Source: Apostichopus japonicus (lineage: Eukaryota > Echinodermata > Holothuroidea > Aspidochirotida > Stichopodidae). Taken from it: DNA of 64,000 nt. The notes beneath the pieces are model-generated. The model saw only the letters and a program-made list of their open reading frames with translations. It searched no databases and was not told the origin of the DNA. Positions 4,381 to 50,532 of the stretch are shown here, in pieces. The stretch spans positions 3,565,001 to 3,629,000 of the forward strand of contig NC_092568.1 of the NCBI RefSeq assembly GCF_037975245.1. The letters are read 5' to 3'. A program made the translations under genes and the position numbers. Within the stretch, counting starts at the first letter, position 1. Each line of letters starts with the position of its first letter.

Positions 4381-4402
4381 ATATATATATATATATATAT
4401 AT
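4381..4402. repeat. (TA)n array
   Basis: A short TA array next to a PLE tail. In the right copy the sequence departs at the matching point (39,980) into a 10.5-kb composite and rejoins at 50,532, again at TA. Confidence 0.9.
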
Positions 4403-4405
4403 AGA

Positions 4406-6594: not shown

Positions 6595-6602
6595 GTTGTG
6601 GT

Positions 6603-7910: not shown

Positions 7911-7918
7911 AGGGCGGC

Positions 7919-8556
7919 GGAACCGGGGGGGCACAGGGGGCACGTGCCCCCCACTTTTCCTCAGGGTTAAAAATGTGCCCTTTTTCTACATAAAAATTGA
8001 GGTATCTTAAGTTAGCAAGAGGCCAGGGAACCGGAATGAACACTCTGGAAGGGCCGTTTCCGGCCATCTGAGGGGTTTGTAAAACAAAAATTTTTCTTGT
8101 ACGATCCGCGCCAACCGATGGTGGCGCTCCGCTCAGATAGTCGTGCATCCAACTTTGCAAATCCTGGCTACGCCCCTGAGTTTTAATGAATTTATGTGGG
8201 TCAAACTCAAAGCTATTTCGAATGGAAACAATTTGTTAAGATATTAACAAGAAATGAACTCTCATTCGGAAAATTCATACATTAGCAACTAGCATGATTT
8301 CACCTCATTTGTCTCAATAGAAAACTTGTTCCTTGTTTCCCAATTTGCACATTGGATATTGCAGTGCCAGTATGCATATTTTCCTTGAGGGGGGGGGGGG
8401 GGGCGTTGATGGGGTGATGTGTATACGCAAATAAGATAATACATTAAGAGTTATAAAGGGTACTAAATATCAGGCTACATCAGTCCAATCGAATTTCTGC
8501 AAAGTGCCCTTTGATGTCGGTGCCCCCCCAGATTAAATGTGCTTCCGCCGCCCTTG
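7919..8556. mobile_element. hAT MITE, left copy only
   Basis: TIRs of 14 bases, CAAGGGCGGCGGAA, lie at both ends. The 8-base target duplication TTTTTAGT (7,911-7,918 and 8,557-8,564) occurs once at the matching empty site 56,126-56,133 in the right copy. It is 638 bp, has no transposase, and holds G and C runs. The insertion came after the duplication, or is a haplotype difference. Confidence 0.93.
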
Positions 8557-8564
8557 TTTTTAGT

Positions 8565-10511: not shown

Positions 10512-10549
<38 letters not shown>

Positions 10550-11190
10550 GATATCAGCCTAAACTGAATACAGAGGTACGGTATTAACTTTATTCTTTGT
10601 CGTAGGAAACGACGGTAACCTTTAACATCAGTCAGGCTCGCAAACGCAATAATCATATGGTGTTGTCAAAACGGCAAGATCTATATCTGCAAGTTTGCTG
10701 TAATGTATCATTTTGTTGAAAACCACGAATATTACAAAAAGATCTTAACATTTTGACAACACGTTCCAACATTTCAATACACATACGTCAATATATGGCA
10801 AAGGGATCGTCTGCAATTAGGGTCATACTGGTGCAAATAAAGCAACAACAACGGATATTTTTAGACAAATCCGTTCACGTCACGCTTCGACAGAGATATT
10901 GAAAGACAAAACCAGGCCTGAATAGTGCTTGCTTTTTACTGCTGTACCACAGGTGTTATCTCGGTATTGCAGGCAGTATAGCAAGTATAGGTGCACAGTA
11001 AATCGGATAGTTAGGTCCATGTATTACAAGGAGAGCATTTTACTTACAAAATGACCAATTTTGATGAGTAAAGCAGGATTATGGCTACGCCAAAGAAATT
11101 CCGAAATCGCAATCATTTTTGGAGAAAATTATCTAGCGACGAGATCAGTTCAGTAAGTACATACGTCGTACATAATATACAGATGAAAAC
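8565..11190. other. No recognisable gene; includes an (AAT)n array
   Basis: Apart from an (AAT)n microsatellite at 10,478-10,549 nothing stands out. This stretch probably lies upstream of, or in the leader of, the calmodulin-like gene. Confidence 0.5.
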
Positions 11191-11193
11191 ATG
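11191..11193 (+). CDS. Candidate first coding exon (ATG only) of the calmodulin-like gene
   Basis: An ATG followed at once by a GTATGT donor would give the phase needed by the exon at 12,335. Animal calmodulin genes often have an intron directly after the start codon. The right copy has TTG at the matching site (58,755). Many other ATG|GT words exist, so this is only a candidate. Confidence 0.25.
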
Positions 11194-11733
11194 GTATGTA
11201 AGCACACAATAACATGTGACGTCATGTGGTTTTCCTTCAGTTTATCTGTTGCTAGATTTATTTGTCGTGCTACTTAGTGTATCTATACATCGGCTATTCA
11301 TACTTACTATGAATAAATATGTTATCTTCTATATAAGCTTTGAAATAAATGAAGCCGTAGGTTAAACAGAACTTCTGGAAATGTTATTTTGGACGATTTT
11401 AACATACGAGACCTACTGCATATGTATTACAATCGTCCGTTTATTTACTTCATATACAACTTTCAACGACTAAATTTCATACCTTGATAATGAAGTTTAC
11501 AAAACGATCGAATATTATGATCTTAAAAATGTGCTTGGAATACTTTAAACTTAGAATTGGTTGGTATAAAGATATTTTGCCATTATTTCTATTCAGTGAT
11601 AGGTCAAACACATAAGCCACCACAATTTGTAAAATTAGCTATTTACGAAATAAAACAACCCTTGGTATAATCTTCCCTCAATCCCTTTCCCTAACTGATC
11701 TTGCCAATCAAGTTATTTAAATAACTATATTAA

Positions 11734-12140
11734 TCAACGAGTTAAAGCTATAGCTATCCTTGGAATATTTCCTCAACAAGTGAACACATTATTGATACAA
11801 ACTTGTTATGGTATTTCTTTTACCCCAGTGCTCAAGCTGAATAAAATAGCTGGAGTAAGCCGGAAAGTGTAGAACCGTTCGATAATATATATGAACATAG
11901 CTTACGTGAAAAGAAACACTAAAATATGAATAACTGTATTTATCAACGAGTTAAAGCTATAGCTATCCTTGGAATATTTCCTCAACAAGTGAACACATTA
12001 TTGATACAAACTTGTTATGGTATTTCTTTACCCCAGTGCTCAATCTGAATACAATAGCTGGAGTAAGCCGGAAAGTGTAGAACCGTTCGATAATATATAT
12101 GAACATAGCTTACGTGAAAAGACACACTAAAATAGATCAG
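11734..12140. repeat. 209-bp tandem repeat, two units
   Basis: Units start at 11,734 and 11,943 and are nearly identical. The right copy has three units (59,299, 59,509, 59,718). The repeat lies in the presumed first intron of the calmodulin-like gene. Confidence 0.9.
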
Positions 12141-12334
12141 TGACACCATGAAACGCTGACTCACTATAAGTATCCCACCTTGACCAACATTGACCCACCT
12201 TCGCTTCTGTCATCCCCATTTGCCCTCACAACACCCTCCGTCTAGAGGTAGTTTTAGACCGTTGATTACATCACTGACTATTAATGCATAAACATAAACA
12301 TTAACGTATTTTAACATTAATTTATCGATAACAG

Positions 12335-12365
12335 GTCGATGAGCTTACACCAGAACAAAGGCATG
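12335..12365 (+). CDS. Calmodulin-like gene, exon with DELTPEQ
   Basis: Preceded by AACAG and followed by GTGAGT. It encodes VDELTPEQRH plus one base and matches the calmodulin N-terminus. The right copy at 60,107 has GG in place of the acceptor AG. Confidence 0.8.
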
Positions 12366-15300
12366 GTGAGTAAGTCGCATGGTGTTCATTTGTTGCAAGG
12401 TGCAATTGAACGCCTGTGTTACACCTTTCATGGTTTCCTGGGTCTAACTAACCAAGAATTGTCCTTTTCCTTTTTGTACGTCATGTACCTAATGGTTATA
12501 TAATTTGATTTCTTCTGCTCCTGTGTATTAAGACAAACGGAACAATTTGCTGCCATATTTGATAACGTCAACACTGACATGAAAACATTCACAGTTTGTT
12601 GAACTTCGTTCACCATCAAATACAATACTTTAGTCATAGACTTGATACATGCGAACTACTCACGTCGAACATTGAACCTAGTTCACAATGTCATTCAGCT
12701 TAAGACAATAAATAATCCTACCATAGAAATCTGACGGAAATTTTCACATGATAAATCGAACTTTATCTCACGATTAATGCGGAAAACTAAGAGCAAATCG
12801 GAATAATTAAAGTGACTTTAAAACTACAGCTACGAACAGGTAAACCTGCACGCATGATAAGTAAAGAAGTATGAATTCTTAGATCCGGATTCTCGGAGTT
12901 TGAAAAAAATATATAGAAACAGTAAGAAATAGTCTACGTATGTGCAAGTCTTTTATATACTCCGAGCATAGCAAAAACAAAGCCACTCATCTCCATCCAA
13001 TATGTCTTTCTCCATTTTTGGGATATTCTTTGCTTTAGCATGATCTGAATCCGTCAGAATTATAAGTATAAAGAAGTAAACTAAATATGAACTCTTGTAA
13101 TTGAAAACGTTAGAAATATGTCATATCTTTATTGATTAAGGAAACATGTAATTCCGAGCTGGACAGGGTATTTGGGGGGAGGAGGGGAGGTTTTTTGCGA
13201 ATCAAGTTCTTCTTTACCATGACGACTATATACCTGTTTGCTTTGATATCCAGAGTTCAAGGAAGCCTTCCTTCTATTTGACCAAGACAAAGATGGCGTC
13301 ATCAGTGCCAATGAACTAGACAAGGTGATGAAGTTGCTGAAACAAGATACGAGTGAGGAGGAAATCAGAGAAATGTTTGACGAGGCTGACACTGATGGTA
13401 TAAAAACCATAGACTGCGATAGAAACAAATTCTTTGAGTTTTATTTATCCAATGAACACGATTATAGTGTTGTTGAATATCGGGCATTCTTTCCCAATAG
13501 CACGCTGGTAGGATTGGAGCACGAATGCGACTGTGAGGGAGGATTTGTTCATTTTGTAAAAAATTTCTCTGAGTATGTGAGAAACTGACAAATTCTTCAC
13601 ATATATTTATAAATTCTAAAATTTTACAATTACATCCTATAAAACTATTTCATAAACTATTGGAGCACGAATATATACATACATCTAGATTCCAAATGAT
13701 AACTTTGGAGAACGATGGGTACATTTTGTTGCATTCTGCTAACTACTTTGGTTAACGTTACGTCACATCCTTAAATTAATGGACGTTAAATATGCAGTAA
13801 CCACAATTGTGTCAATTCCTTCAAATTTCTTTCCATAGTACCGTATGTGTCTCCGATGTCTCTAATAATCACTTTAATGACAGCTCTATAGTTTTTGACA
13901 GTTCTTGATTGCGACCGGTACGTGTCATAGCTTGAAAACAGTATCTCACACATTTTGTTTCAAAAGGAAATGGAGCTATCGATTTCAAAGAGTTTCTCAC
14001 GATGATGGCGAACAAGATGTCCAAACATAGTATTGACGATGGGATGAAACAAGCCTTCAAAGTCTTTGAGACTGATATTAAAGGCCACGTAAGGTAAGAG
14101 CTGGAGTTTATTTGACTTTTGCTAACACCGAAAAACAAAAACAAATGATGAAATTGTTTTGAGGATATTGCCTGACACTTAAACAAAATAATGCATATAT
14201 AATTTGTACAATTATTTACATCACTTTTTCATTTTCATCATTTGCGGTCCTATCTGCGTGTCATATATATAATTTGTACAATTATTTACATCACTTTTTC
14301 ATTTTCATCATTTGCGGTCCTATCTGCGTGTCATATATATAATTTGTACAATTATTTACATCACTTTTTCATTTTCATCATTTGCGGTCCTATCTGCGTG
14401 TCACCTATTTACACGTCTTCGAGTTACTTCAGAAGATCATTTGTTTCACTAATTCTAATATCCGAAATCTTCACATTTGCATGTATTACCCACAGTGCCG
14501 ACGACTCAATACATATAGGCTAAGGGAAGAAATGTTGTTAATTTCGGTGACAATATTCAAAGTGTAACGGCATATTGCTCTACATACGTAATTCGACAGC
14601 ACTTATAGGTACAAGATTCATGAAGCGATATTGTTTATCTCATTTTATCTTTATTTTTGCTTGGCAACCATCTTAACTTTCAAAATTAAAATCCTGTTAA
14701 CAAAAAAACATCAAATGCGTTCCATAAATTTAATATTAAATGAAATACAAACGTTATTAAATTAATCATTCAAGTCCAATAAATGATACTATGGTAGCCT
14801 GTACCTTTCCGAAATAATTACCTTGATATTTTCCTTAAAACTATATTCGTTAATGTTAAAATAATCTTTAAAATACTTACGCAAACTAAACACATATGGA
14901 ATGGCTTTAAATTGCTTGCATTTAAATATATGTTCCTTTACTAAAATTATTCAACGTTAGCTACCTGGTCACACCCCCACAAAAAAAAAAAAAAAGGTTT
15001 ATTTTAATGTTTGCGCAGATACACAAACGCTGTGAATATAATTACAAAGTACAAATATAAACTTGCAATAAAATGAAAATGTGTTAGATTTTCTCGATGT
15101 CATTGTGGCAAAATGTACAGTTCACTGTAAGGCGTTTATAAAACAAATATAGGATAAATTATATGGAGAATAATATACTGAAACCATTTAATTTGAACGT
15201 TGGTAGAACAACGGAAATGAATGGAGTATAATATCTAGCCCACGATGATTGCGATATATCCAGGGATTTTCCAGAGATTTTCTTTTGAACTCGGATTGCT

Positions 15301-18300
15301 ATAAGAGTTTACTGTAAACAGATTTACACGTTAAATAATTACGGTGTAACATCATACTGCTTAACCTATATACCGGGGTTTGGAATGCTATGGTGTAGAT
15401 TATTAAAAAAGTTACTCCATGCCGTCGTAATATAGTGAATAAGCCAATGGTATTCAAGAAAATGATTACTAATGCCCAAAATACTAACCATATGGTATTA
15501 GACGTAGAAAGTACCCTTTTCTTATCAATTAGCTCGTTTACAAAGTAGATGCCCTTTCTAAACCGATGAGAGTAAGAACGGGTTGATTGATTACTAAAAT
15601 TATTATTCCACGACTGACTCAGAGTTAATGTGTCATTTTTCCTTTTCCCCCAGTGAAATCCCCTGTTTACAAAAATATTGGGCTGAGGCTAACACATCTT
15701 TCCAAAATTCATTCTACTCAAGTTAATTTGCATTCCTGTTAACATCATTCCCATACTTAAATATTCAATGTATCTTGATAAATAACAAGAAACATGTCCC
15801 TGACAACCGCTTTTTAACATACGTGCAAAACATGCAACAATAAGTGCAACGAACACAGTGTATGGATACGTCAACCATTCTTAATACCACCTTCAGAGTA
15901 ATCTTGAATAATATAGATTCGACTTTACACGATCTGGTTTCTGTAAACACAAATAATTAAAACAAAATATATACCTTTAAGTGCAACGCAATGTATGGCT
16001 ATGTCAATCATTTTTAATACCACCTTCCAGAATACTCTTGAATAATATAGTTTCGACTCAAACGATCTGTTTTTTTTTACCGTCATACTTCAGTATCGAT
16101 GTCAATGTTGAAGGTAATGCCAAGGATGTAAAATCCTCTCCAAAAACCCAATAAATATCGTTCAAAAACATTTGAAAACCAGTCAATGTTCCTGCTCCCA
16201 CTAACATGGACTTACTAATATTCATTTTTAAACCTGAAAATTCCACGAAAAAGTGATTGAGTAAATTGCGAAAACATCGTTCGTTCGCTTCGACAAAGAA
16301 CCTGGTGTCATCAGCATAAGGAGTCATTTTATATTCTTTTCCACCGATATCAATACCTCGAATGGAATCATCATTGCTTATTAAAACATTCAATAGCTGA
16401 GTACATAATTTAAAAATATATGGGGATAGTGGGTCTCCTTGCCGGCATCCTCTTTCAACAGGAAATTATTGTGATGGAAACCATTGATGAGGACAAAAGA
16501 GGAAGCACAGTTATAAAATGTTTCAAAACACTTGAAGATATGTGTTTTTCATTCGTTTTTAAAGTATGTTTTCATGTCTATATTTCTAGTGCTGACGACA
16601 TTCGTCACGTCATGAAGACGTATGGTGATACTCTACCCACCGAGGATGTTGAAGAAATGCTGAGAGTTGCTGGGGTAGATAACGATGGAAATATTGATTA
16701 CATGGGTAATTAATTGATTTTTCTCAATACAAATTAAAATGACTAAAAGGAATATATAGTAGCTAACGTCATATAAATTGTTTGTAAGTCAACTTGGAGA
16801 TTGCAATCGGCATCGAAGGTCTACCATCAAGTTGTGAAATCTCTCAAAATAAGGATGAACGAATATCTATATAGTTAACCCAAGTATACACTATCCGGTA
16901 TATAGCTCCCGAATGTTTTCTTTACTTGAGTGTATTAATATTGCCCTTAAAAGTACAAGTACTGTGAATTATTAAAAAGAATGACTAAATGTGCCTTATA
17001 GTTGCGAGTAAGAACCACGCTACATTTGTACATGGTAAAATACTGAATGACATAAGATGAAGAACGAAAGATTTAGACTATTAAAAAGTGTCTAATTCCA
17101 CCCCTTTTTCTATTGAAGTTACGTCATGAAACTAGAATATATTATTCTTTGTCAAATTTCTCATGGAGCCCGTGTTCATTTACCACAGTTTCTTTCAAGT
17201 TCTTTCAAGTCAACAGATCAAACAACATCTTTATATAAAATCGCAATCAGCTTGCAGTCTGAAACTAAAGACAATCCAAGATTAACTTCCATTAGATCTC
17301 GTGATAACTAACAACCGTCCACACCACATTATTGCTTTTTCATGGCCAACGTTTAAAAAAAACTATACGAATATCAGGAAGTGATTCATGTAACTGATTT
17401 ATATTTCACAATGCAAACGATACACTGCGTGGTATTGAACTAACGAACTTGGAAGTTCGTACATGCGCCATATAACCGCAATATAATGACGGATTTGATT
17501 TCCAAGTATTATATAGCAAATGAACTCAGAGGTCAGGTTTATAACACACAGAATATGGGACAAGTACCGGCTATTTCGAGTACATCATCATTGAGTATTG
17601 CCTCCGAAGTTAACAGCCTTCCCAGTTCACTGTGTCAAATAGCACCAGTTACATGCCATACGTAAATTACGACTTTAGACATTGCCTACATGTGTTAAAT
17701 ATCCGCAATATAATGACAATTTGATCTCCAAGTATTATATACCCAGCTAATATACTCAGGTTTATAACACACTGCATAGAGGAACCGAATGTGGGACAGA
17801 CCCGACTCGGTTGGGGGCCAAACCGGATATTTGGAATACATCATCGTTGAGTATTGCGTGAGAAGTTAACAGCCTTCTCAGTTCACTGTGGCATATAGTA
17901 CCAGTTGCATATCATACGTAAGGAATAACTACAACCGTTCAACCAATCTATACCGTAAAATTGCTCGTTACAAGTAACAAAACTGCCGTTTTCGTTGAGG
18001 AGTACAAAATCCAAAGAAGAAACAAAACCTTAAAAACGTTAAGGAGTCTTAAATGTAAACAAGATGGATACGAAGGGAGTTGAAGTTACGATTTTACCCA
18101 CCGATTCGCCTGGTTACGTTTTTGAAGATCCGACACAAAGAACACTTTTGTCCGTTATAGTGATACTTGTGGCGGCTGTTGGCATTCCTGGGAATATATT
18201 GGTTATGATTGCTGTGACTTTTTCGAAAAGATTGCAAACCAAGACCAATTCATTTGTCGTGAATTTGGCGTGTTCTGATCTTGCTACGTGTCTCGTCCTT

Positions 18301-19420
18301 CCGTTCCAAGTTGTCGCTTTGTTGAACGATAGTTGGCCGTTGCCAGACCCGTTGTGCACCTTTGTTGCTATTGTTGTATGGGTTGGTCTTGGTAGCAGCA
18401 TAGTCAATCTCGCCTTAATCGCCTTTAACCGTATCACGTTAATAACTAAATCTCGTACTCACTACGACCAACTATATTCAAAGAGAAATCTTGTCCTCAT
18501 GTTAGCTTCAGCATGGATCATTCCGATCGTCCTGGTTACGGTCCCACCCTTGTGTGGCCTTGGAGGAATCGGCTACTCGGAGAGATATAAGATATGTTCA
18601 GCTGACTCAACCCATCCTTTATCGGATGTTTACGCATTCATCAGCAGTGTTCTCGTTGAAGTTCCTTGTTTGATCATTATCATTACATGTTACGTCAAAA
18701 TTTATCGATTCATTCGAGCTAAAAATCGCGAGCTGTTTTCCAACAACGCATGTAGAGGGGAAAACAAGGGCAACGCCCAATCAGCGGCCTTCAAAAGACA
18801 AGTGAAAGTGACAAAGAACTTGTTTTTGGTGGTATGTTCGTATATCATCTGTATAATGCCCTTTGCTATCGCCTGTTTGATACCACCCAGCTACCCTTCC
18901 ATTCCTTGGGTGTCGATATTTCTTATCGCTAACTGTTGTGTGAATCCAATCATTTATGGGCTAAAACATCCTCAGTTTAGAGATGTATTTCGAAATATCC
19001 TATCGTGCAAGTTTAGACTTATTCCAGAGCCATCGAAGCTATTGCAGAGTCTCACCACCAGCTCTACTGGCGCATAACAAGCTCATTGGGTACCGTATTT
19101 CAGAATACGTGACAATTCTTCAATTAATCCACACAGAAGAACTGATTTAGTCGGAATATCATGTTCCTTTGAGAAAAGGAAAATGATAAAATGATTGAAT
19201 AACGCTTTAACCATATAGTACGTTAACTGTTTTCCTAATGATTCACTTGTCCATTCCAAACCGTATAATGTTTTTATACCTAGACTACTCTTTTTTAGCG
19301 TTGATTCAAATATTTGGTCGCATTTGTTTACTATACTTTAGCTTTCAAATATAGTTTGGATTATTCACTAATATTCACAATATAAATTAAGATTAAATTA
19401 GTTTAATAAATGAATATAAC

Positions 19421-19455
<35 letters not shown>

Positions 19456-22291
19456 CTTAGCCAGCAAATTGATTCCAAAACCAGAAAACTGCAAAAAGAA
19501 CTCCCCAAGAACGAGTTCGAAAGAAAGCTTGACTCCATCTCCAAAATTTGCTTGAACCTCTCACATACCCTAGCTTCAAGACAATGTCACAAATTGAAGA
19601 GGGATAATGTCACGCAAAGAGTTAAGTCTTCTGGTGAAACCCAACTTGAAACCTCAAAAAGAACCAGGTCTCGCAGATTCCGTCGGAAAGAGATACAGAC
19701 CGCATGCAACACCACCAAAAGTGCAGTTGTTACCATTGATTGCCAATTCTCGGCAGGAGAAACAAACCTACTCTCCAAAGGTCTAAATTTTTGCCCTAAA
19801 CCACGGCAAGTAAACGCTCAGAAACTTTCTCTTGACCTAAATCTGTTCTATCGACGCTTACGTCTCCGTGATTTTTTTGCCGACGAAAATGGCAATAACA
19901 CCACGCAAGAAACCAACGACTTGCATTCCAATTTTAAGCCAAAAAGCTCGTGGAATCCACCCAAGGCCCATTGTGCGCCTCTTGAATCATTTATTTCGGC
20001 CATTGAAGATGATGTCAAAACACACACCTCCGCCCCAGACTTCCGCGACAATCTCAACAAAACTGAGAGACAGGCCATTCATGAACTGCGGAAGCGCGAT
20101 GACATTGTCATCAAGCCAGCCGACAAGGGTTCTGCAATTGTCGCTATGGGCAAACAATTCTACAGAGAGGAAGCCAACAGACTACTCAGCAACCCTCAAC
20201 ACTACAAACTCCTGGATTCTGATCCAACTCAAGAAATCACACAAAACGTGAAAAGAGTCATCCAAAAGATAGTCTCTAACGGTTCCATTGACCGCAAGTT
20301 AGGCCAAAACCTCCTGGAAAATGACCCAAAACCTGGTCGCTTTTATTTTCTGCCTAAAATTCACAAAGAAGGCAATCCCGGGAGGCCCATAATATCGGGT
20401 AATGGCACAGCGACTGAAAAAATTTCCAAATTCGTGGATCTCCTCATCCAACCTCTCGTTTCGGCCCTACCGTCCTATGTGCAGGACACTACGGATTTCA
20501 TCCGGAAAATTGGGGAAATAAAAAATCTTCCCTTATCTTCTCTGTTAGTTACCTTGGATGTGTCTTCGTTATACACAAATATCCCTAACGAAGAGGGCAT
20601 TTCGGCCTGCACAAAAGCATTCAAACCGATACGTGGCAAAACCCCCACGAAGAAAGAATTGGCCGAATTAATGCAACTTATCTTGACCAACAATAATCTG
20701 GTATTTGGCAACAAACACTACCTCCAAATTCATGGCACCGCAATGGGTACCAAAATGGCACCGTCTTTTGCCAACATCTTTATGGGAAACCTCGAGAAAG
20801 AATTTTTATCTCGACAAAACTTGAAACCACACACGTGGTTACGTTACATTGACGATATCTTTATGATATGGACCCATGGTGAGGCTAATCTAAAACTCTT
20901 CATTGATGACATAAACTCGTTTCATCACACTATCAAATTCACTGCTGATTTTTCTGGACATGGCGTTCACTTTCTGGACACCACCGTGACCCTACAAAAT
21001 GGTTCACTCAAAACAGACTTGTTCAATAAACCTACGAACAAGCACAACTACCTCTTACCAAGCAGTTGCCATCCACGTCACTGTACCAGAAATATTCCGT
21101 ACAGTCAAGCGTTGCGCATTCGACGCATTTGCTCCTCTGAAGTCGATTTTGATTCACGCACTAAAGAACTGTCACAACACCTCCTAAACAGACAGTATTT
21201 TCGGGGTACTATTGAAAATGCCATCAAAAAGGCTAAAAGCAAACCCCGTACCGAAACATTGACGTACAAAACTCGTCCAACCAGTTCCAAAAGGGTACCA
21301 TTGGTTACTGAATTCCACCCTGGTCTCCCACCACTGGCTAATATCATTCAGAAGAATTTTCACCTACTTCAAGGCACCGAACGCCTGAAATCAGTATTCC
21401 CAGAATTACCTGTCATCGCTTTTAAAAGACCCAGCAACCTACGGGATATCTTAGTTCGGGCATCCTTTCGGGATGACACCCCATTAGGGGAAAGCAAAAC
21501 AGAAACTACAGGATCATCGCCCTGTACACAAAATTGCAAAACGTGCTTACTTGTCGATTCGACCGGGGCCTTTCAGAGCAACCAAACCAAACGCACGTTC
21601 CAAATTCGGCACAAAATTAACTGCCTATCCAAAAATGTCATTTACCTCATCTACTGCAATATTTGTAACTTACAATACATTGGAGAGTCAAAAAACACTC
21701 TTAGAATGAGAATGACACAACATAGATCGGCGATCAAAACAAAAAAGATCTACCAACCTGTTGCAAATCACTTCAATCTCCAAAATCATTCAATTGAGAA
21801 TTTGCGTGTTATTGCCATTGACCAGAACGATTCTTGGACAGATAAATCTAGGAAAGCGAAAGAAAATTTCTGGGAACTAAACCTAAAGACCACGGCACCA
21901 TTCGGTTTAAACATCAGAAACGATTTGCCGTCCCAGATAAACCAAAACAATTCCTTTACAATTACGACGGAATCGGATTAAAATAATCCGACGCGGATTA
22001 AAATAATCCGAATTTCTAAAACTTCTGCTCTATTCAGCAGAAATCAGTAAGTCGCTTTGCCTTTACAACCATGCCGACATCTTCTCTATAAAACAGTTTC
22101 AATTCCTGCTACTCCTTGTCACTTTCGGTGATCATGCACTGAAGAAGAGCTAGTTTTGCTCGAAAGCTCTGCAAAAACCAAACATTGGCTGTTTTACTTC
22201 CAATCATTTACCTAATTCAATTATTGTATCTCACTCGAGATCCAGCCTTTCTCTAAATGCAGCATAGTTGTTTAACAGTTTTTCCGTTATT

Positions 22292-36179: not shown

Positions 36180-36615
36180 AGTTGTCGGAAAAGGCCGGAG
36201 CTAGCACAACTTGCTAATGTGAGAACCTGACGCTATGAACCGCGCTTTGACGTTGGCCAATCAGAGCTGTCAGATCACGTCTCCCGAGCTCTGATGTAAT
36301 GTTAAACCAATCCGGGAACAATACACAATCACGTGTATACAGTAGCCATTGTGACCATGTTGACCAGAGCTTTCCTTTCAGGATCGTGTTTATTTCAACC
36401 CTCGGCATGTGTAAACATAACCCTGAAATGTTAGCAGTATATCAACAAGGTAATTTTAACCATTGTGGTTTTAGAGTTTAACTGCAACCGTTGAAAAATC
36501 TATTCCGTTATATTGCTCGTTACAAGTAACAAGAACGTCGTTTCCGCTGAGGAGTACAAAATCCAAAGAAGATCAAAAAGTTAAAAACGTGAAGGAGTCA
36601 TTAGGGTTAAACAAG
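36180..36615 (+). promoter_or_regulatory. Promoter and 5' leader of receptor A'
   Basis: CCAAT at 36,257-36,261. A segment at 36,321-36,484, missing on the left, contains an exon-like piece: CTTTCCTTTCAG at about 36,370-36,381, then about 70 bases to CAACAAG followed by GTAATT at about 36,450. It may be a 5' non-coding exon. Confidence 0.45.
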
Positions 36616-37629
36616 ATGGATACGAACGGAGTTGAAGTTACGAATTTACCCACCGATTCGCCTGTTTATGTTTTGGAAGATCTGACAGTAAGAAAACTTT
36701 GGTCCGTTATGGCGATACTTGTGGCGGCTGTTGGCATTCCTGGGAATATATTGGTTATGATCGCTGTGACTTTCTCGAAACGATTGCAAACCAAGACCAA
36801 TGCATTTGTCGTGAATTTGGCGTGTTCTGATCTTGCAGCGTGCCTCGTCCTTCCGTTCCAAGTTGTCGCATTGTTGAACGATAGTTGGCCATTGCCAGAC
36901 CCGTTGTGCACCTTTGTTGCTATTGTTGTCTGGGTTGGTCTTGGTAGCAGCGTAGTCAATCTCGCCTTAATCGCATTTAACCGTTTCACGTTAATAACTA
37001 AATCTCGTACTCACTACGACCAAGTATATTCAAAGAGAAATCTTGTCCTCATGTTAGCTTCAGCATGGATCATTCCGATCTTCCTGGTTACGGTCCCACC
37101 CTTATGTGGCCTTGGAAGAATCGGCTACTCGGAGCGGTATAAGTTATGTTCAGCTGACTCAAATCATCCTTTATCGAATGTTTACTCATTCATCACCAGT
37201 GCTTTCGTTGGAGTTCCATGTTTGATCATTATCATTACATGTTACGTCAAAATTTATCGCTTTATTCGAGCTAAAAATCGCGAGCTGTTTTCGAACAACG
37301 AATCTAGAGGGGAAAACAAGGGCAACGCCCAATCAGCGGCCTTCAAAAGACAAGTGAAAGTGACAAGGAACTTGTTTTTGGTGGTTTGTTCGTATATCAT
37401 ATGTATAATGCCCTATGCTATCGCCTGTTTGATACCACCCAGCTACCCTGCCATTCCTTGGGTGTCGTTATTTCTTATTGCTAACTGTTGTGTGAATCCA
37501 ATCATTTATGGACTAAAACATCCTCAGTTTAGAGATGTATTTCGACATATCCTATCGTGCAAGTTTAGACTTATTCCAGAGCCATCGAAGCTATTGCAGA
37601 CTCTCACAACCAGTTCTAACGGCGCATAG
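36616..37629 (+). CDS. Class A orphan GPCR, receptor A'
   Basis: 337 residues, single exon, intact, with the same seven-transmembrane plan as receptor A: GN in TM1, NRF at 122-124, Cys98/Cys178 and NPIIY at 294-298. It differs from A at I103, V137, Q239 and R245. Three of these (I103, Q239, R245) agree with receptor B. Silent differences around 37,160-37,350 also side with B, so A' either keeps older states or has taken a tract from B. The start is the ATG matching receptor B's, with AAGATGG context. Confidence 0.93.
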   Translation: MDTNGVEVTNLPTDSPVYVLEDLTVRKLWSVMAILVAAVGIPGNILVMIAVTFSKRLQTKTNAFVVNLACSDLAACLVLPFQVVALLNDSWPLPDPLCTFVAIVVWVGLGSSVVNLALIAFNRFTLITKSRTHYDQVYSKRNLVLMLASAWIIPIFLVTVPPLCGLGRIGYSERYKLCSADSNHPLSNVYSFITSAFVGVPCLIIIITCYVKIYRFIRAKNRELFSNNESRGENKGNAQSAAFKRQVKVTRNLFLVVCSYIICIMPYAIACLIPPSYPAIPWVSLFLIANCCVNPIIYGLKHPQFRDVFRHILSCKFRLIPEPSKLLQTLTTSSNGA

Positions 37630-39385: not shown

Positions 39386-40263
39386 AACTTCCAAGGCAAA
39401 TATATATGTATATAGCAAGACTAGAAGTACACATTATTAGAACCATACATGGAGACAATGAATAGTTCGTACATCTGTATAACGGGTACTACTAGTTTGC
39501 TCCTTCCAGTTAAGGATTATGTTTATATCAAAGTAGTGAAAAATCTAGTACTCTATGATTACCTTCAGAAAGCTATGAAAAATACTTTCAACTTTGTTAC
39601 AACTAACAGAACTATCGTGGCATCAACAACTGATCTAAGACGTAATACTTTAATGTCTACTTAAATATATAGGAGTCAATAGTGAACCATACATTGTTTT
39701 GTTACTGTAATCCGTTTTGCTGTACTACTTTAGTGATCTCAACTCATCCTTAGTTCTTCTGATTTGTTCACATATTTTTTGTTCTATTACAACTCAATTA
39801 CAATATCATTAAACGTGTTGTAAGTTAAAACAATAGCATTCTTTTGTTATTTGTCTGAATGTCATTTGTTCAAATTTTTAATAATCTACGTTATTCTACA
39901 ACAAGAGCTATACTGCCGCGTAAGCAAGATGACATTGTTGAGATACACTTTGTTGATATATGAGAGGTTCCTGTTTCTATACAACACTACCCATTAATAT
40001 ACAGATACCTTGCATCAATATACGAAGAATGTTTTTGTACAAAAGGATTTGTAAATATACAGATATCTTGCATCAATATACAAAAGGAGAATGTTTCTGT
40101 ACAAAAGGTTTGTTTATATGCACTAGCCGTCCATCAAAAAACAAAAGGTATATGTTGCTCTACATTAAAAATTGTGACTTTACAGAACCTTTCTGTACAA
40201 ATGGTACTGTCATTTTTACGAGATTGATCGTAGGAGAATGGACACATTATGTAGGTAAACAAA

Positions 40264-40265
<2 letters not shown>

Positions 40266-40352
<87 letters not shown>
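40266..40352. repeat. (TA)n array
   Basis: About 87 bases of TA; open frames across it are artefacts. Confidence 0.9.
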
Positions 40353-40360
<8 letters not shown>

Positions 40361-40810
40361 AATATATATGTTAAAATATATGTTAAAATATTTTAATAAA
40401 CATTTAAATTGCCTCGAACTTCAAATCAGCTAGTGAACGTAAACGTAAAGAAATCGATTGGATCTTTCATATTAAGTCTCACATCACCGGCCTCAACAAA
40501 GACTTGGGACCCCTTAACAACTATCATGCAGTTCTACAAACATATGTTATCCGTTCTGTGCTCCTTAATCCGCTTCCTGTATAGTCATAGTTTATTTGGT
40601 TCTAATTCCATCATTGCAACTTACACTTATCTAGCGTTATACTTTCATTGTGTTACATTTTTACTTTTCATTCGACTGCCAAGTATTGCTGACGAAGGTC
40701 CCAGGGGACCGAAAATTCCAATATATTTTCTTAAACTTTACTCCTTATTTGTCAATTATGAGTCATATCTTATTTCTCTGGTTTTCTCTAATGATAATAA
40801 TAATAATAAT

Positions 40811-41206
<396 letters not shown>

Positions 41207-41404
41207 TATATATAAATAAATATATATATACACTCTAAAAACTGAAGTGCTAATTTAGTAGCTCCAACACGGTGCTAGTCATCAATTAGCACTTTAAGAG
41301 CTAGTATCTAAACCTTCAAGTGTTAAATAACTTGCACCATACCAAAGTGCTATCGCCGTAGTTGTGATGCACTGCACTTATTAAGTGCTGAAAGTTTCGT
41401 ATTA

Positions 41405-41523
41405 ACTTTTGATTGGCTGAAGGCGGTGACGTCAGTAACATGCAACAACGCTATTGGTTATAACCAAATAGTTGCATATCGCATCGCTAGACGTGACAAC
41501 TGACTTTCGTTCCAACGGCAGAC
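41405..41523 (+). promoter_or_regulatory. Promoter-like module and first-exon donor in the TIR element
   Basis: Inverted CCAAT boxes (ATTGG at 41,412 and about 41,453), a perfect CRE (TGACGTCA, 41,427-41,434), and a GTAAGT donor at 41,524 that could end a non-coding first exon. Confidence 0.45.
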
Positions 41524-42558
41524 GTAAGTTTCTGAATTGAAATCTGTGAATATTCTCCAGAGTAAGGAAATTTTGAAAGCTGATATGGCGACCTTTAATG
41601 AAATTTGAGTGATCATTCATGTTTTCAATAACCTAGCTTTGCTGATGACGTCGGGAATTCCCTTGAAATAATTGCTCTGTCGACGTCTTAGTGATGGTAG
41701 CCTACCACTGATTTCATAGGTCTATTCACGTATGTAAATGCCAAATGCGCTCTGATATAACATTAGGCTATGCCAAGTTTATGATTGGGCGTTTATAGGC
41801 CTAGCCTACCTCCTTATTGTAACATTTATAAGGCCTAACTTTATGGCCGCCAATGGGTGATTCGATTGAGGTGTGCTACTGGTACTACAGTTTACTATGT
41901 TTGCACAAGTGGCCATCACACAGTCTTAACGTATAAGAGAGGCAGGCCCAATGCAATAAGTATTGGTATTGGTTTAGGCCTATATGCCAATGCCTAAAGA
42001 ATACGAGCCGATGGCCGCTACACGACCACAAGAAAACGTTTAGGAAGGCCTGCCAACCCATATTACGCTTTGAATTTGTGGTAGCCTAGCCTACAAGTAC
42101 AAACCATACTTCACAGTCATTCTCATACATTATTCAGGTTTAAAGAAAAATTAAAGTTAATGTAAACATAAAATAATGATCAGAGTAATTTTATACATCC
42201 TATTCTTATTTGACCTTGATAGTGTTTCCCATAATTCATGCATCGCTTAATGTTGTGTACCCTAATGTTTGCCTTGTTTGCACCTATCAAGGAAGGCCTA
42301 CTATAGGTATGTTTTCCTTTTGAAATGATGACTCCCAATGTAAATATGCTTCATTTAAGATGTTCTGTCATGAAAAGTGAAAGAATATAGGTAGGCTAAA
42401 TTTTCCAATTAATTTGAAACAAATTTTGGTGAAACTTTAAACATGCTTTTTTTGGATCAAATCTGTTTATAGACTCAAGCTTTTGCAGAAAAATGAAAGA
42501 AACCTGACATGTTTTGGGATTCATCGCATGTTTTCTTGTTTTATTCTTGTACTTGTAG

Positions 42559-44931
42559 ATTTCGCAAGACTTTGAGCAGATGTATGGAGATCAGGTCGCC
42601 AATAACTTTTTGATGAAATGTGGGGAACATTCCCGCCTCATTTGGAAGTACATAGCATGTAGTACCAACTCAGCTCTGCGGGACCTTCAGTTTGAATTTG
42701 AAGAAACAGAAAATTCTGAGGGTATGTTTAAAAAAAGTGCTAACATTTTGTAGTCATGTGACTCTCATTGTGCAAGTTCAGTCAAGTTTTCTGTAGTGAA
42801 TATTTGGTATGTTAGCTCTATAAAAGACTGCTATAGATAAAATCATGTACAAAAAAGTGGCAATGCTGTTAACAGATTGTCTGGTACCCAACTTTCTTTA
42901 AACATACATGGAAGAAATGAATGAAAGTGATTAAACTGAAACTGAATTACATTTCAATCTAGATTTTGAAGAAGACTTAAGTTCTGACACCATCGAAGCT
43001 GGTGGGAGTTTATATGATTGGTGGGCATCTACCTGTCTAACGATAGTTCATTAAGTGGTATTATCTCCTGCAGTCTTATGTGAATTTTCAAGTACTGAAG
43101 CTAACTTGGCTAAACTGATCCATGGGAGGGGACCCATCACAAATGTATCCAAAAATTGAGGTCAAAGATCATTTAAGTGTCAATTCAGGCTGCAGCATGT
43201 GAATCAAAAATAGCCAGATCATTATCAGATTGCTCGCAAATTGTTGAAATAAGTGGATTAAACCTTGTATCCAGATTTCAGATCAAAGGTTATAACTATT
43301 GGGTCTAAATTTGTAGCCAGTTCTTAGGCCCATGCACTAAAATTGACTAAGCTGGCAATCCTGTTCAGTTTTGCTTTAATTCCAGCTGTGGAGTAAGGGT
43401 AAACTGAAAGAAAATTTGTTTCTTGAGCCACGTACTGTTAAAGCGCTGTGGGTGGAGGGGTGTGTTATTATTCTAGAAACATTCTAGAACCAATGTTGTA
43501 GGTCTGGTGGTGTAGGGTTGTACCTGTATAGCCACTTGCGTGGTTCATTCATTGATACAAGTTACTGTACCACTTGATGCCTTAGTTTCCTCCATCCAAG
43601 AGTGTATTCAGTAAGTATTAATTTCCTGGCCTAACCAATTTCAATTATAGAAGCATCCCAGAAATCCTTTCAGTCTTTCACCATATTTATTTTAGTGACT
43701 TTGAAAAGACCTATGACTGTGAAATTGACACAGGCCTTTGTAATTTGGGTTCAGTGGACATAAAGGTATATCTGAATAATGTTTTTTTTTTATCTTGGCT
43801 ATATGTAATTTGTATATTGCAATTTCTAGAGCAAGTAGTAGGAACAAACAATTACTAACTGACACGTCACACTATTTTGTTGACATATACATCTGTTTTG
43901 TTGAGATATGTAATCTGCTTTTATGTTTTTCATTATTAAGAAACTTTTTAGTTTCTTCTTTAGAACATGCATCCATGTACGGTCTGTTTGCTTTGGTTCA
44001 CCTATTGCCGTCTTTCAACACAAGGAAAAGTGGAAAATGCAGTCGAGATGACAATGTCCGTTTCTTCATCGCCTGACAACCAGTAAGTTGTTTTGTGTGT
44101 TGAGTGGGAAAGATCTGCCAAAATTCACGCAGAGTGATCATTCTTTAAGCCATTTGAGCCTAGGGGATATTGGTGCTGACATTCTGTCCTCTAGGCCTCA
44201 GCCCCTTGGCTCAATCTGCGCTGGGCGGTCCAGGTAGGTGCTCTTATTAAATGTGTCTTTCCTTCAGGAGATAAGAGTCAACCACATAAAACTATCTGAT
44301 ACAGATGTGGGTCAATGTAGACTATTCTGTACTTGAGCCAGATAATCCTTTATTATATATCAAGTTATACCTGCATATCTTTTTAGCTGGTTAGATATTA
44401 ACATGGATTTTATATTTGGTTAAAATATGGCACTAGCCAGGCAGCAGTTCAGGCAAGATACATAATAGTACGGTAAGTGATGCAAGCAGGATGTGAACCA
44501 ATTGTCACCCGGACTAGTTGAAGTTTTCAGAGGTTACTAGAGAAATTGGCACTATTTTGGAAATTAATGCTTGCTTAATTTATTTTCTTCTTAGATCGGC
44601 ACAAATGTGGAAGAATATGCAAAGAAAAGCCAACTCAGCAGAAAACAGCCACACCTCCTGGCCATTGGAAGCAATGTGACTGACTTGCAGCAGTTTTTTT
44701 TTTGTAGTTCTGGATGGAGTTGCCCTACCTGTTTCCAGGCAAGCATGTGGAATTGTAGCAGCTACAGATATTTTAATGAAAGTTCATTATGTTTTTAATG
44801 TAGCATATGCGGTGCAGCTCACAGATTTCTACACCTTTATCCAAACTGTGTTGTATGGCATACCCCTATCAGGTCAAAAGATAAGTAATCATGTTAAGGA
44901 GATAAGGATTGCTTTGCAAAATGTGGAGTAG
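42559..44931 (+). pseudogene. SAMD3-like C-terminal-domain gene, slightly broken
   Basis: Exons 42,559-42,721, 42,963-43,001, 43,964-44,082 and 44,595-44,931 join in phase (1, 1, 0) with AG/GT borders. Recognisable parts: QDFEQMYGDQVANNF, MYGLFALVHLLPSF, GTNVEEYAKKS, QPHLLAIG, FFVV/LDGVALP and HYVFNVAYAVQLTDFYTFIQT. The order matches the C-terminal half of proteins annotated as 'sterile alpha motif domain-containing protein 3-like', numerous in fish and marine invertebrates; their function is unknown to me. From the first Met (42,580) it would be about 210 residues, without the SAM domain. Two lesions: a TGA at 44,074-44,076 and a 10-T run (44,694-44,703) that shifts the frame by one base. 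The second may be a sequencing error. Stop at 44,929. Confidence 0.68.
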
Positions 44932-46383
44932 AGACTGTTCACAGTTTAGTTTAAAAGCATTAAGGAAAGTTTGTTGCAAGCATGTCTTAAAATTTATTCG
45001 TTTTAATTACTAGCATTACAGTAATCTCTTTCAAGATTTCTCTTAACGTTTCTTAAGTTACAATGGCCATTTTGTAGTAGAAAAACATGCCGTATGTTTT
45101 TACTTTGGGATCAATGTTTCAATTCTAGTAATCCTTTAGAGCTCAGTATGTACGTACCTATTATATAAAGTGTAGTTGGATTTTTGACATTAACAGAAAT
45201 ATAAGGCCTACAACACAGGGTTAACAAATACAAAACTGAACACTAGACAACTTAGACCCACATATATCTCTAAACTCATCTCCAGATGAACCTAGTTATG
45301 ATGGATAAACTCAGGTTTTGACCAGTTATTCAGGTTGTACAGTTGATGATTTAAGTTTTGGCTTATAAAAATGGGAGGGATACTGCTTGCACCAGATCTC
45401 AGCCACAGCCACTCACACAAATTACTCATTAGTAATTAAAGACTCACAATATGTCAGGTACTTGCTCGCCCTTCGGGAGCGTAGGTTTACCTAACTTAGT
45501 CTTGATTGGGTGTTGTCACTGTTAATTTTATCATGTTTTAAAACATTCATTCAGACTGTTAGATGTTATTCAGTGTTATGTTTCAGTTTAATTTTGCCCC
45601 ATTTGGGGATCAAGTTGGTGTTATTTTCATTTGACATCATTAAAAGAGTGGAGTGAATAGGTTTGAAGGTGTTGTCCAAAATAAGGGACCATGGGAACAA
45701 AGCCTCATTGGGTGGTCAAAAATGTTTTTTTTTTTAATTTAATTTTTGTCCAATCTGAGATCTTTTCCAGTTGGAATCTGGATTTTACTGGATTTTAGGG
45801 GTGCATAGTCCCATCTCCTGTAAATATCACTCGGTACTAATACAGAAAATTAATATCATGTTTGAAAATTGTAACATCCATGGCTAAATGTAAACATAAA
45901 GTTAGGCTAGAACACTATGCATGGATATACTCTAGCACTTCTGGTCAACAGCCTTAAATTTTTATAGTAACCAAAGGGTTTAGCTGAGACACTTAAGCTA
46001 ATCCGTCTACACTATAAGTCTAACTTATGAATTTTTATTTCTCAAGTACAGGAAGCAATAAAAGGAAGAAAGAAAAGAAAAAATGTGTTCCCTTTTATTT
46101 CAGTCAGGAGATGCTGTGTTTTGACCTATGCATTCCATATTTTGCAAGTGATACAGATTAATTAGGATTTGCACTTACAGGTGCTATATTTCAGTGCTCT
46201 TTCCAGTGCTGGTGGTAGCACTTAAAGTGCGGGACTGTTGTAGCACTTTTCAGGTGCTTGTATAGTTAGCACCTTTGAGAGTGCTGTTTATAGCACTTAG
46301 GGTGCTGTCCCTCTCAGGGCTCTTGGGAAGTGCTGTAAAATAGCACTCTATGTGCTGTTTTCAGCACTTTGGTTTTTAGAGTG

Positions 46384-46426
<43 letters not shown>

Positions 46427-46497
46427 ATATAACGAAACTCCACGTTTACTCCAAAAGAAAATATTATATATAAATAAATATATATATATACATTTGT

Positions 46498-46528
<31 letters not shown>

Positions 46529-46529
46529 A

Positions 46530-46562
<33 letters not shown>

Positions 46563-46637
46563 ACGATATATATATAACGAAACTCCACGTTTACTCCAAA
46601 AGAAAATATTATATATAAATAAATATATATATAAACC

Positions 46638-46639
<2 letters not shown>
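46384..46639. repeat. TA arrays with two copies of an inverted hairpin arm
   Basis: The arm 'aacgaaactccacgttt...' appears at 46,431 and 46,577, as at 41,160 and 50,346. These repeats form the TA-rich bed into which the flanking elements went. Confidence 0.8.
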
Positions 46640-46670
<31 letters not shown>

Positions 46671-49600
46671 GATGTTTTATTCAGCCACATGCATAAAAAT
46701 ACAATGGAAATTGTTCAAAACACAAGAGCTCTAAAACAGACATGAAATTGAAACGCAAAACGATGAAACACATATAAAAAGTGATATTGCATGAGTAATA
46801 AATACCGGTAGGCTATCGACAATGGTATAAAAACATTGCGATAAAAGTGACGATGTAAAACAGTACGAATGATAAGAAATATGTACGGCAAGAACCATAA
46901 AATGTATACTTGTACGATAAACAGAGCGCTAAGTCAATGAAACAGAATTCAGAACAAATAAGACATAAGATACAGGGAGTGATAAATAAGTTATCGACTA
47001 TGATGCGCATTGAAAATCTTCACTGCAGATGGATAAAAACTGTTGGTAAAACGATTCGAACCTCTAAAAGCTAGTAATCTATTTCCTGAGGGAAGGACAT
47101 TGAAATGCACAAATGCTGGGTGGGAATGGTCTTTCATAATACAGTCTACACGCCTCAGTGCTCGCTCCTGATATAGTGAATGGAGGGACGGTAGACTAGT
47201 GCCAATTATACCTTCAGCACTCCTGATAACTGACTGAAGTTTCCCTAGATCCCTCACACGACTAAACCAGACTAAAATGTTTGTAGTTAAAATACTCTCT
47301 ATAATTGCACGATAGAAATTCACTAAAATAAAATCACTAACACCATAAGATTTAAGAGTCCGTAAAAAGAATAGTCTCTGACGTCCCTTCTTCAATATTT
47401 CATGTGAATTTTCATTCCAAGACAAATTTTCCATAATGAATGTGCCTAATAATTTAAATGTGTGCACCTGCTCTACAGCAGAACCATTTATGATCAGAGG
47501 GTCCTTTGTATTTTTGTTACGCCTAAAGTCCACAATCAGTTCCTTGGTTTTGTCCACATTAAGAGTTAAGTTGTTATCGTGGCACCAGTTCACCAGAAGG
47601 TTTACCTCATCACGGTAGTGGCGTTCATCGTCATCTGTGATCAGGCCAGTCACTGTGGTGTCGTCTGCAAATTTGATGATCCGCGAGTTTGGGTGGACGG
47701 CTGCACAATCATGTGTGAACAGGGAGTACAGCAGTGGCGAAAGTACACACCCCTGTGGGGTGCCCGTGTTGAGAACGACAGCCGCTGAACAATTGTTACC
47801 GACCCTCACAGTCTGTTTGCGTTCCAGAAGGAAATCCAGGATCCAATTACAAATTGAAGGAGGGAATTTCAAATGTTCCAATAATTTAAAATGTAACTGT
47901 GAAGGAATAATAGTGTTAAAAGCTGAGCTATAATCGATAAAAAGTAAGCGGGCGTAGGAACACTTCCTCTCCAGGTGAGCCAGGGTCCCATGTAACCATA
48001 TAGAAATAGCGTCTTCAACCGATCTGTTCGTGCGATAGGCGAATTGCGAGCGATCAAAACCTTCGGGTAAAAGTGATTTGATAAAAGAAAGGATAAAACG
48101 TTCAAATGTTTTCATCGGTACAGATGTAAGCGCGACCGGTCGATAGTCGTTCAAGCCAGATACTTTGCCCTTCTTTGGGATGGGTACTATGGTGGCATCT
48201 TTGAATGACCGGGGTACTTCTGACGTGCTCAGCGACCAATTGAATATGTCAGTGTAGACGCCAGCAAGTTGTTCGGCGCATATTTTGAGCAGTTTTGGAG
48301 TGATGCCATCGGGTCCTGGTGCTTTCCGTTCGTTGAGTCGTTTGAAATTGTTCCTCACCGAGGTCACATCGATGGCAAATGGCGCGGTGACATCTGTGTT
48401 GTTGGCTGGAGATGGTTGGCTGTTATTATCTTTGTCAAAACGCGTATAAAATTCGTTCAGCTTGTCTGGCAGCTCTGCATCATCACTATCCGCTGACCTC
48501 TTCACCCCTTTGTAGTTGGTAATCTCCCCGATGTTCGCCCATGCTTCTCTCGGGTTTACAGTATCAAACTTTTGCTCAATCAGTTCCTTTTGTGCTCTTT
48601 TCGCGTTCCTAATGGCTCTCCTGAGGTCAGACTTGGCGAGGTGGTATCTATCTGGATCAATGGTCTTAGTCCGATAAGCTTCATCCTTGGCCTTTATTTT
48701 TGCTTTGACAGCTTTGTCACACCACGGTTTGTTGTTTGGGTATTGTGTGACAGTCTTAGTTGGTATACAAATGTCTTGGCAGAAATTGATGTACGCAGTC
48801 AACGTATTTGTGAATGAATGCAAATCATTATCCTCTTTGAACAAATCCCAATTCGTGTCATCAAAACAATCCTGTAGTTTATCGATCGCTTCCCGAGTCC
48901 ATACTTTGACCGTTCTTTTCACTGGCTTCGTTATCTTCAACTCTTGTTTGTAAATAGGGATAAGTAGCACTGTGTTGTGATCAGAGTTACCGATACCAGC
49001 TCGCGGGACTGACTTGTATACATTCTTTACTTTACAGTAACAGTGATCTAGGATGTTGTTGCCGCGAGTGGCACATGTCACATGCTGCTTCAATTCGGGC
49101 ATTGAGTTCCTCAGATTAGCGTGATTAAAATCCCCCACAACAATAGACAACGTGTTTGGGTCGGAGTTCTCACAATTGGAAATCATCCCTCGCAGGCTTT
49201 CTGTTGCTATGGTTGCATCGGCGCGAGGGTGTATGTAAACCGCTATCAGAGTCACTGATGAAAACTCACGGGGGATGTAGAACGGCCTACACTTGATTAT
49301 GATATGTTCCATATCCGGGGTGGTTCCTTGGGAAATTATCCTTACGTCCTTACACCAGTTATTGTTGATGAGGAAGCAAACTCCACCGCCCTGAGACTTC
49401 CCCGTAATCTGTCGATCCCGATCATGTCGATAGATTGTGAACCCCGGCGGTTGCAATATACAGTCAGGGTGATCTGTGGTGAGCCAGGTTTCAGTTAAAC
49501 AAAACACATTGCAGTCGGCATAATCACGGAAGTTTGCGATTCTCGAAAATAACTCACCCGTCTTGTTGAAAAGTCTCTGCACGTTCACTAAGATAATACT

Positions 49601-49918
49601 AGGTACTGGAGTGTTCTGATGTGTGCGACGAAGTTTTACTAGTTTGCCACCTCTCCTGCCCCGCTTACGTGTAGGCCTAACGTTAGGCTTAGGCTCATTC
49701 CAAGGGGCATCGGTTGGCCAGTCCACAGAAAATTGACTTTCGTTGAGTCCGAAACCGTCGGATTGCGAGAAAGGATCCTGGCGTAATCGTAATAAATCCT
49801 CTCTGGAATATTGCAGGAAAGTGGACGATACAGATGAAATGACGACATGAAATAACATTAAAAACAGGAGAGCTCTAGTGACCGTGTCGCTCTTGATCAG
49901 CGCCATCATATAATTCAT
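46640..49918 (-). mobile_element. LINE, CR1/L2/Rex1 group, intact ORF2
   Basis: Minus-strand element bordered by TA arrays. The 3' end has an AATAAA (plus-strand TTTATT near 46,677) and closes with short ATCT/TAGA repeats, as in the CR1/L2 group. No ORF1 is seen, so it is 5'-truncated or a one-ORF type. Confidence 0.85.
46991..49918 (-). CDS. LINE ORF2: APE endonuclease and reverse transcriptase
   Basis: 975 codons without a stop from the ATG at 49,918; ATGs at 49,909 and 49,906 are alternatives, and the frame stays open into TA repeats upstream. The N-terminus ([19 protein letters not shown]) is strongly hydrophobic and signal-like. APE motifs: LTETWL, VVGDFN, and SDH near the domain end. 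RT motifs: [13 protein letters not shown] (A), [13 protein letters not shown] (B), KFADDTT (C). The C-terminus ([22 protein letters not shown]) is typical of CR1/L2/Rex1-like elements. Intact over its length, so potentially recent. No NPGP (2A) motif is present. Confidence 0.9.
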
Positions 49919-49988
49919 ATATATATTTGTATATATATATATATATATATAAATATATAAATATATATATATATATATATGTATATAC

Positions 49989-50053
<65 letters not shown>

Positions 50054-50058
50054 TATAA

Positions 50059-50100
<42 letters not shown>
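49919..50100. repeat. (TA)n array upstream of the LINE
   Basis: About 180 bases of TA with scattered changes. Confidence 0.9.
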
Positions 50101-50383
<283 letters not shown>

Positions 50384-50453
50384 ATAAATAAATATATATA
50401 TATATATTTGTATATATATATATATATAAATATATATATATATGTATATACAT

Positions 50454-50532
<79 letters not shown>
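50384..50532. repeat. (TA)n array at the right edge of the composite block
   Basis: Homology to the left copy resumes right after it. Confidence 0.9.

Follow-up and report, generated by a model that had tools for sequence, protein, structure and literature searches.

Within a 64-kb window of the Apostichopus japonicus genome (C8:3565001-3629000; 671.6 Mb were scanned) we found a 5-kb multicopy DNA element that contains part of a gene related to the database protein P0001 (541 aa). Very probably, it is the internally deleted form of an EnSpm/CMC-like transposon, and autonomous members of this lineage would encode, besides a transposase, the product of this gene as a second protein. The initial annotation of the window had described a transposon with a five-exon SAMD3-like gene that may be its own mobility factor. 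Databases list P0001 merely as an 'uncharacterized protein'.

Copies of the element in the genome

The initial annotation had proposed paired CACTCT-type terminal inverted repeats (TIRs), and the element does end in perfect 12-bp TIRs (CACTCTAAAAAC, Table 1), which have no third occurrence in the window. Aligned with each other, the two ends match at 19 of 21 bp. The predicted AGCACT-rich subterminal regions were also found: of the 45 AGTGCT/AGCACT hexamers in the window, nine lie in the right 213 bp and four in the left 213 bp of the element. The TA flanks are present as described, but they sit within (TA)n on both sides and are uninformative at this locus, so the target duplication must be read from other copies.

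We searched the genome with a 204-bp right-end query and scored 40 of the 41 candidates, and the family size is therefore a lower bound. The last exon of the gene lies within 4 kb of 36 of the 40 scored right ends, and 30 right-end loci (the window's included) have at least 1.2 kb of the interior in common. Thus, at least part of the gene family travels on DNA transposons with these ends, as had been suggested. Twenty family loci were taken as 10-kb stretches, and 18 of them, together with the window's element, gave 19 aligned elements. Both ends are present in 18 of the 20 loci, 5240-5665 bp apart. At L045 the left end is absent and homology begins just past the last exon, and at L050, which forms a third group by right-end score, the element is interrupted by another element. 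Identical 2-bp flanks were found in 17 of the 18 other copies (14 TA, two TG and one CA), while those of L040 differ (TA/TG); TA repeats surround four of the 14 TA-flanked copies (L031, L037, L042 and L043).

The 19 elements can be grouped into two subfamilies, A (98.6-99.2% identical, including the window's element) and B (98.4-99.8% identical), with about 95% identity between them. Judged from these identities, the element family is young. When substitution events per site were counted in 250-bp bins, the left end was lowest (0.044, against 0.07-0.17 elsewhere), while the right-end bin (0.072) did not fall below exon 3 (0.070) or one of the interior bins (0.072). L031 (C16:16631742-16637000) and L041 (from C16:16637133) belong to different subfamilies and lie about 130 bp apart.

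The gene relic

P0001 matches the window with residues 331-384 at 42559-42720, residues 388-429 at 43972-44097 and, for the last exon, residues 425-475 plus 460-537 at 44595-44928. We set the exon boundaries by splice sites that preserve the phase. The exons of the proposed five-exon, phase-consistent gene are present, but they number three and the gene is broken by an in-frame TGA and a frame-shifting run of 10 T (Table 1). A small exon at 42963-43005 was considered and rejected as unnecessary, because exon 1 splices directly to 43964 in phase, as in P0001.

None of the 19 copies has an open frame through all three joined exons; five are open through exons 2 and 3 joined, and 12 when exon 3 is taken by itself. 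The ratio of non-synonymous to synonymous events, counted by parsimony, is 17:1 in exon 1 (scored in one frame, though many copies are frameshifted there), 13:4 in exon 2 and 13:10 in exon 3. The gene in these copies is a decaying relic. Since no copy has the joined exons open and yet the copies are 98.4-99.8% identical within the subfamilies, they moved in trans, without a working gene of this kind of their own.

Relatives with an open gene and a candidate transposase

We then investigated matches to the last exon elsewhere in the genome, scoring the best 150 of 440 candidates. Among these, the last exon is open at C1:19558183 and C16:9176892 and is 56% identical over its whole length. About 2 kb away from each, a right-end match at 81% starts at the terminal base (C1:19560617-19560759 and C16:9178920-9179062). 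The C1 copy is known partly from sequence (L051, L052 and L053), the gene sequence covering the exons for P0001 residues 209-541. These exons are present and phase-consistent in L051, and the right end in L052 reads ..TTTTTAGAGTG followed by TA.

Between L046 and C1, third-position differences amount to 65% and second-position differences to 24% in the last exon, and exon 2 behaves likewise (68% and 22%). A DNA comparison of 3 kb of L051 with the element gives a single 31-bp match, which lies within exon 2. The third-position bias and this lone DNA match indicate that selection maintained the coding sequence as the introns drifted. The ratio of non-synonymous to synonymous rates (dN/dS) for the last exon against C1 is about 0.24 for L046 and 0.32 for L034 by YN00. 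As read from these substitution patterns, the exons were under purifying selection in the past along the line joining both families. A 526-aa relative, P0003, runs uninterrupted on a contig of 2529 bases, which hints at a spliced transcript.

A link to a transposase comes from the gene model BSL78_23814 (P0004, 669 aa), located on a contig of 350,862 bases. Its N part, about 257 residues long, resembles a transposase and is joined to a stretch that shares 97% identity with P0001 over 382 residues. The top two genome matches of this N part, at 99% each, are C1:19551884-19552660 and C16:9170608-9171384, where the open frames extend over 847 aa and 698 aa, respectively. On both contigs, the transposase frame lies 5.5 kb upstream of the open last exon on the same strand, and the right end follows. 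The open frame continues without a shift through the 583 bases preceding the C1 match (L053), which encode ADNLGG...CKVC; together with HHFLVH...RFEAKH of P0004, this gives D...C(2)C...H(3)H...E, the CMC signature in the excerpted text of PMC12730594. Inside the window's element, the longest stop-to-stop frame has 98 codons. A search with the transposase piece of P0004 found nothing at E<=1e-3 either in the window or among loci L001-L052. The 5-kb copies among these loci therefore lack that piece, in line with the initial annotation, which had seen no transposase in the window's element.

Gene/transposase pairing across the genome

We next searched the genome with the N part of P0004 and scored the best 147 of 304 candidates. 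Merging neighbouring matches left 134 gene loci and 145 transposase loci among the best-scored candidates; 37 of the gene loci lie near window-family right ends and 97 outside the window family. Gene and transposase were taken as paired when no more than 12 kb apart, and chance was estimated from 1000 draws of random places on the same contig. We identified 23 pairs, all 23 on the same strand, and the transposase is upstream of the gene in 19 of them. Outside the window family, 21 of the 97 gene loci are paired, against a random mean of 0.64 and a maximum of 4, while near the window-family right ends two of the 37 are paired. The paired transposases range from 99% down to 34% identity, and thus the pairing looks old or recurrent. 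In the four pairs of reverse order, the gene comes first and the transposase follows at a near-constant distance of about 1.6 kb; these are perhaps a rearranged family.

A second element family may have its own relic of the gene. At positions 2314-8130 of L050 (in element orientation), a nested 5817-bp element is inserted in the last exon of the host element, with CACTCTTAAAA ends, a TA duplication and GTTGGG-type subterminal repeats. One of its frames contains two collinear, weak pieces of the C-terminal domain of the gene (profile E 9.5e-5 in a six-frame search; 0.0026 with the P0001-P0003 profile alone), which is suggestive of such a family. The CACTCTTAAAA ends are close to CACTCTTAAAAA, the type of end that the initial annotation had mentioned for fish repeats.

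Proposed mechanism and alternative explanations

We propose a cut-and-paste lineage of EnSpm/CMC-like type, with CAC..GTG ends and a 2-bp, mostly TA, duplication. Its autonomous relatives would have two genes on one strand, probably between one pair of TIRs: one for a DDE-type transposase that carries C(2)C and H(3)H motifs, the other for the second protein. In the 5-kb form, the transposase and the 5' portion of the second gene would have been deleted, leaving the last three exons as a relic. This form would multiply in trans when the transposase of a related autonomous copy, presumably of the C1/C16 type or a close relative, recognises the common TIRs and the AGTGCT-type subterminal repeats, which are putative binding sites. 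By analogy with TNPA of plant En/Spm, the second protein may be a DNA-binding or complex-forming accessory.

Several observations weigh against this reading. The evidence for placing both genes within one TIR pair is their order, their spacing and the recurrence of the layout in two copies, in which the right ends were seen, and the C16 copy, including its open last exon, is known from match tables. The dS values behind the last-exon ratios are near saturation (1.3-1.9 by YN00) and undefined by NG86, and within the family the 13:10 of exon 3 is a mere hint of constraint (one-sided P 0.047 against neutral). The transposase motif was judged by eye from the second D onward, and Pfam gives no family at E<=10 for a 453-aa transposase piece. 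No exon match lies within 4 kb of four of the 40 right ends (C9:22177411, C21:8605236, C6:11778379 and C12:25795685). Among the best-scored candidates most loci are unpaired: this holds for 122 of the 145 transposase loci, for 35 of the 37 gene loci near window-family right ends and for 76 of the 97 gene loci elsewhere. Such a majority is expected if many copies were deleted or diverged, but also if part of either family stands alone. The order is reversed at C5:10757433, C12:19953597, C7:4675950 and C17:3554959.

Alternatively, the transposon might have taken up part of a host gene, as Pack-type elements do, and spread it as a passenger without any role in transposition. The gene is broken in all 19 aligned copies, which still moved, and the 76 gene loci outside the window family that are unpaired among the best-scored candidates fit a passenger as well. 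However, the C1 gene is open from residue 209, after a transposase and before the same right end, with a like layout on C16. The last exon carries the mark of purifying selection, although host paralogues captured twice could show the same. The same-strand pairs are far more numerous than chance allows and span transposases of 99% to 34% identity, and the second element family in L050, with its CACTCTTAAAA ends, has a weak relic of its own. We therefore consider capture unlikely. The initial annotation had itself raised the case in which the ends belong to a known transposase family that merely captured the gene. A transposase family is indeed involved, though an uncatalogued one that lacks a Pfam match, while mere capture is disfavoured by the purifying selection and the 23 same-strand pairs.

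The suggestion that the protein encoded by the gene acts as the mobility enzyme, with no need for a separate transposase, draws on the gene being the only recognisable one within the window's element. It has very little probability in our view, since all 19 aligned copies have the gene broken, the related copies on C1 and C16 have a separate candidate transposase frame ahead of the gene, P0001-P0003 have no significant Pfam match and their profile has no significant match to PDB sequences. That the gene belongs to an ordinary host family with unrelated repeats around it would suit the plain 'uncharacterized' or 'hypothetical' labels of its members in databases. The exact ends, the 2-bp duplications and the near-identical copies over many contigs already contradict this for the window family, and we give it practically no weight.

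If the internally deleted EnSpm/CMC-like transposon is the right explanation, an 'uncharacterized' multicopy family in databases would be transposon equipment, and corrections would be due in annotation, in counts of gene families and in expression work on echinoderms and perhaps fish. It would also give the two-gene layout of plant En/Spm a parallel in animals and offer a concrete gene pair for two-component transposition. A more tentative idea, which we regard as possible but rather doubtful, is that the family called host genes by annotators is the accessory gene of an animal CMC-type lineage kept by selection for transposition, and that vertebrate SAMD3 is a domesticated member. The 'SAMD3-like' label and the spread over fish and marine invertebrates are what we presume for this family.

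Table 1. Positions of the element and its parts in the 64-kb window
Feature	Position	Strand	Description
Whole element	41231..46383	.	5153 bp; very probably a non-autonomous EnSpm/CMC-like DNA transposon; paired ends, multicopy, 2-bp duplications elsewhere
Left TIR CACTCTAAAAAC	41231..41242	+	Exact match and end alignment
Right TIR, reverse complement of CACTCTAAAAAC	46372..46383	-	Exact match and end alignment
Left subterminal region	41231..41480	+	250-bp bin with fewest substitutions; 4 AGTGCT/AGCACT hexamers in first 213 bp
Right subterminal region	46171..46383	-	9 AGTGCT/AGCACT hexamers
Promoter-like boxes (putative)	41412..41457	+	ATTGG at 41412 and 41453, TGACGTCA at 41427
Relic exon 1 (ISQDFEQMYGDQVANNFLMK...)	42559..42721	+	Matches P0001 331-384
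Relic exon 2 (HASMYGLFALVHLLPSFNTRK...)	43964..44082	+	Matches P0001 388-429; in-frame TGA at 44074-44076
Relic exon 3 and stop codon (IGTNVEEY...YTFIQT...)	44595..44931	+	Matches P0001 425-537; frame break in T run 44694-44703

The promoter module of the initial annotation corresponds to the ATTGG and TGACGTCA boxes in Table 1; these boxes are present, but ATTGG has 61 occurrences in the window as a whole.

Comparison with known systems and database searches

The element resembles the CMC(T)/EnSpm/CACTA group in its CA..TG ends (CACTCT..AGAGTG here, CAC..GTG in EnSpm), in a duplication within the 2-5 bp range of that group (2 bp in 17 of 18 copies) and in C(2)C and H(3-4)H between the second D and the last E, the latter seen by eye in the related copies. 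CACTA elements have subterminal repeats and a two-gene layout of TNPD and TNPA, and on this general background both features find a likeness here. Unlike in that group, the transposase piece has no Pfam match, and the second gene is linked to the TNPA of EnSpm by analogy alone. Pack-type elements are gene-carrying non-autonomous transposons, and the 5-kb copies are likewise non-autonomous with a gene fragment between their TIRs; unlike a captured host exon, this fragment looks like a relic of the second gene of the autonomous relatives themselves. Tc1/mariner elements make a strict TA target duplication and were ruled out, with TG found twice and CA once among the 18 copies. Fungal EnSpm families are given a 3-bp target duplication in the excerpted text of PMC12730594. 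Because the duplication here is 2 bp, mostly TA, we do not file the element as EnSpm in the narrow sense. The same excerpt describes EnSpm-like transposons with TA duplications (ESTA) from fungi. By description, the element can be set beside ESTA for its mostly TA duplication and CMC-type motifs, but the host here is an animal and TG and CA duplications occur too.

Pfam searches with the window exons, the joined C1 exons, P0001-P0004 and the transposase pieces gave nothing over the curated cut-off; the best weak matches were Herpes_U44 (E 0.014, joined C1 exons) and PB1 (E 0.039, P0001). By Pfam, no sterile alpha motif (SAM) domain was found in P0001, P0003 or P0002 (P0002 lacks the N part). 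NCBIfam returned a single match for P0001-P0003 (E 0.17), and the PDB nothing significant by sequence (best E 0.071). A protein search with the window exon alone gave no candidate, none of 12 pattern matches in viral contigs was confirmed, and a tblastn search of plasmids gave no result. The AlphaFold model of P0001, built from three sequences, is too poor for a fold search (mean predicted local distance difference test score 46, predicted template modelling score 0.29). In the open-licence PMC literature, which does not extend to Repbase, we found, among the papers listed, no description linking SAMD3, SAMD3-like proteins or the sterile alpha motif to a transposon, and an earlier description is possible.

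Surroundings of the element

Most of the window consists of a segmental duplication, 1-16236 and 35423-64000, about 98% identical for long stretches and less so near the end. Three related long open frames at 885-2042, 18043-19077 and 36475-37629 look by eye like seven-transmembrane receptors; two of them lie in the duplication, and one is about 91% identical at the DNA level. A 10.5-kb block at 39980-50506, comprising the element, TA-rich repeats and a frame at 46991-50149 that is reverse-transcriptase-like by eye, is absent from the other duplicate at 4378/4379. An 841-aa open frame at 19456-21981 looks by eye like a reverse transcriptase with an endonuclease-like tail. The repeat AACTCCACGTTTACTCCAAAAGAAAATATT, followed by AT-rich DNA, occurs at 41178, 46436, 46581 and 50350 on the plus strand and at 41025 and 50227 on the minus strand; it borders the element and is also seen close by where the element is absent, in both orientations.

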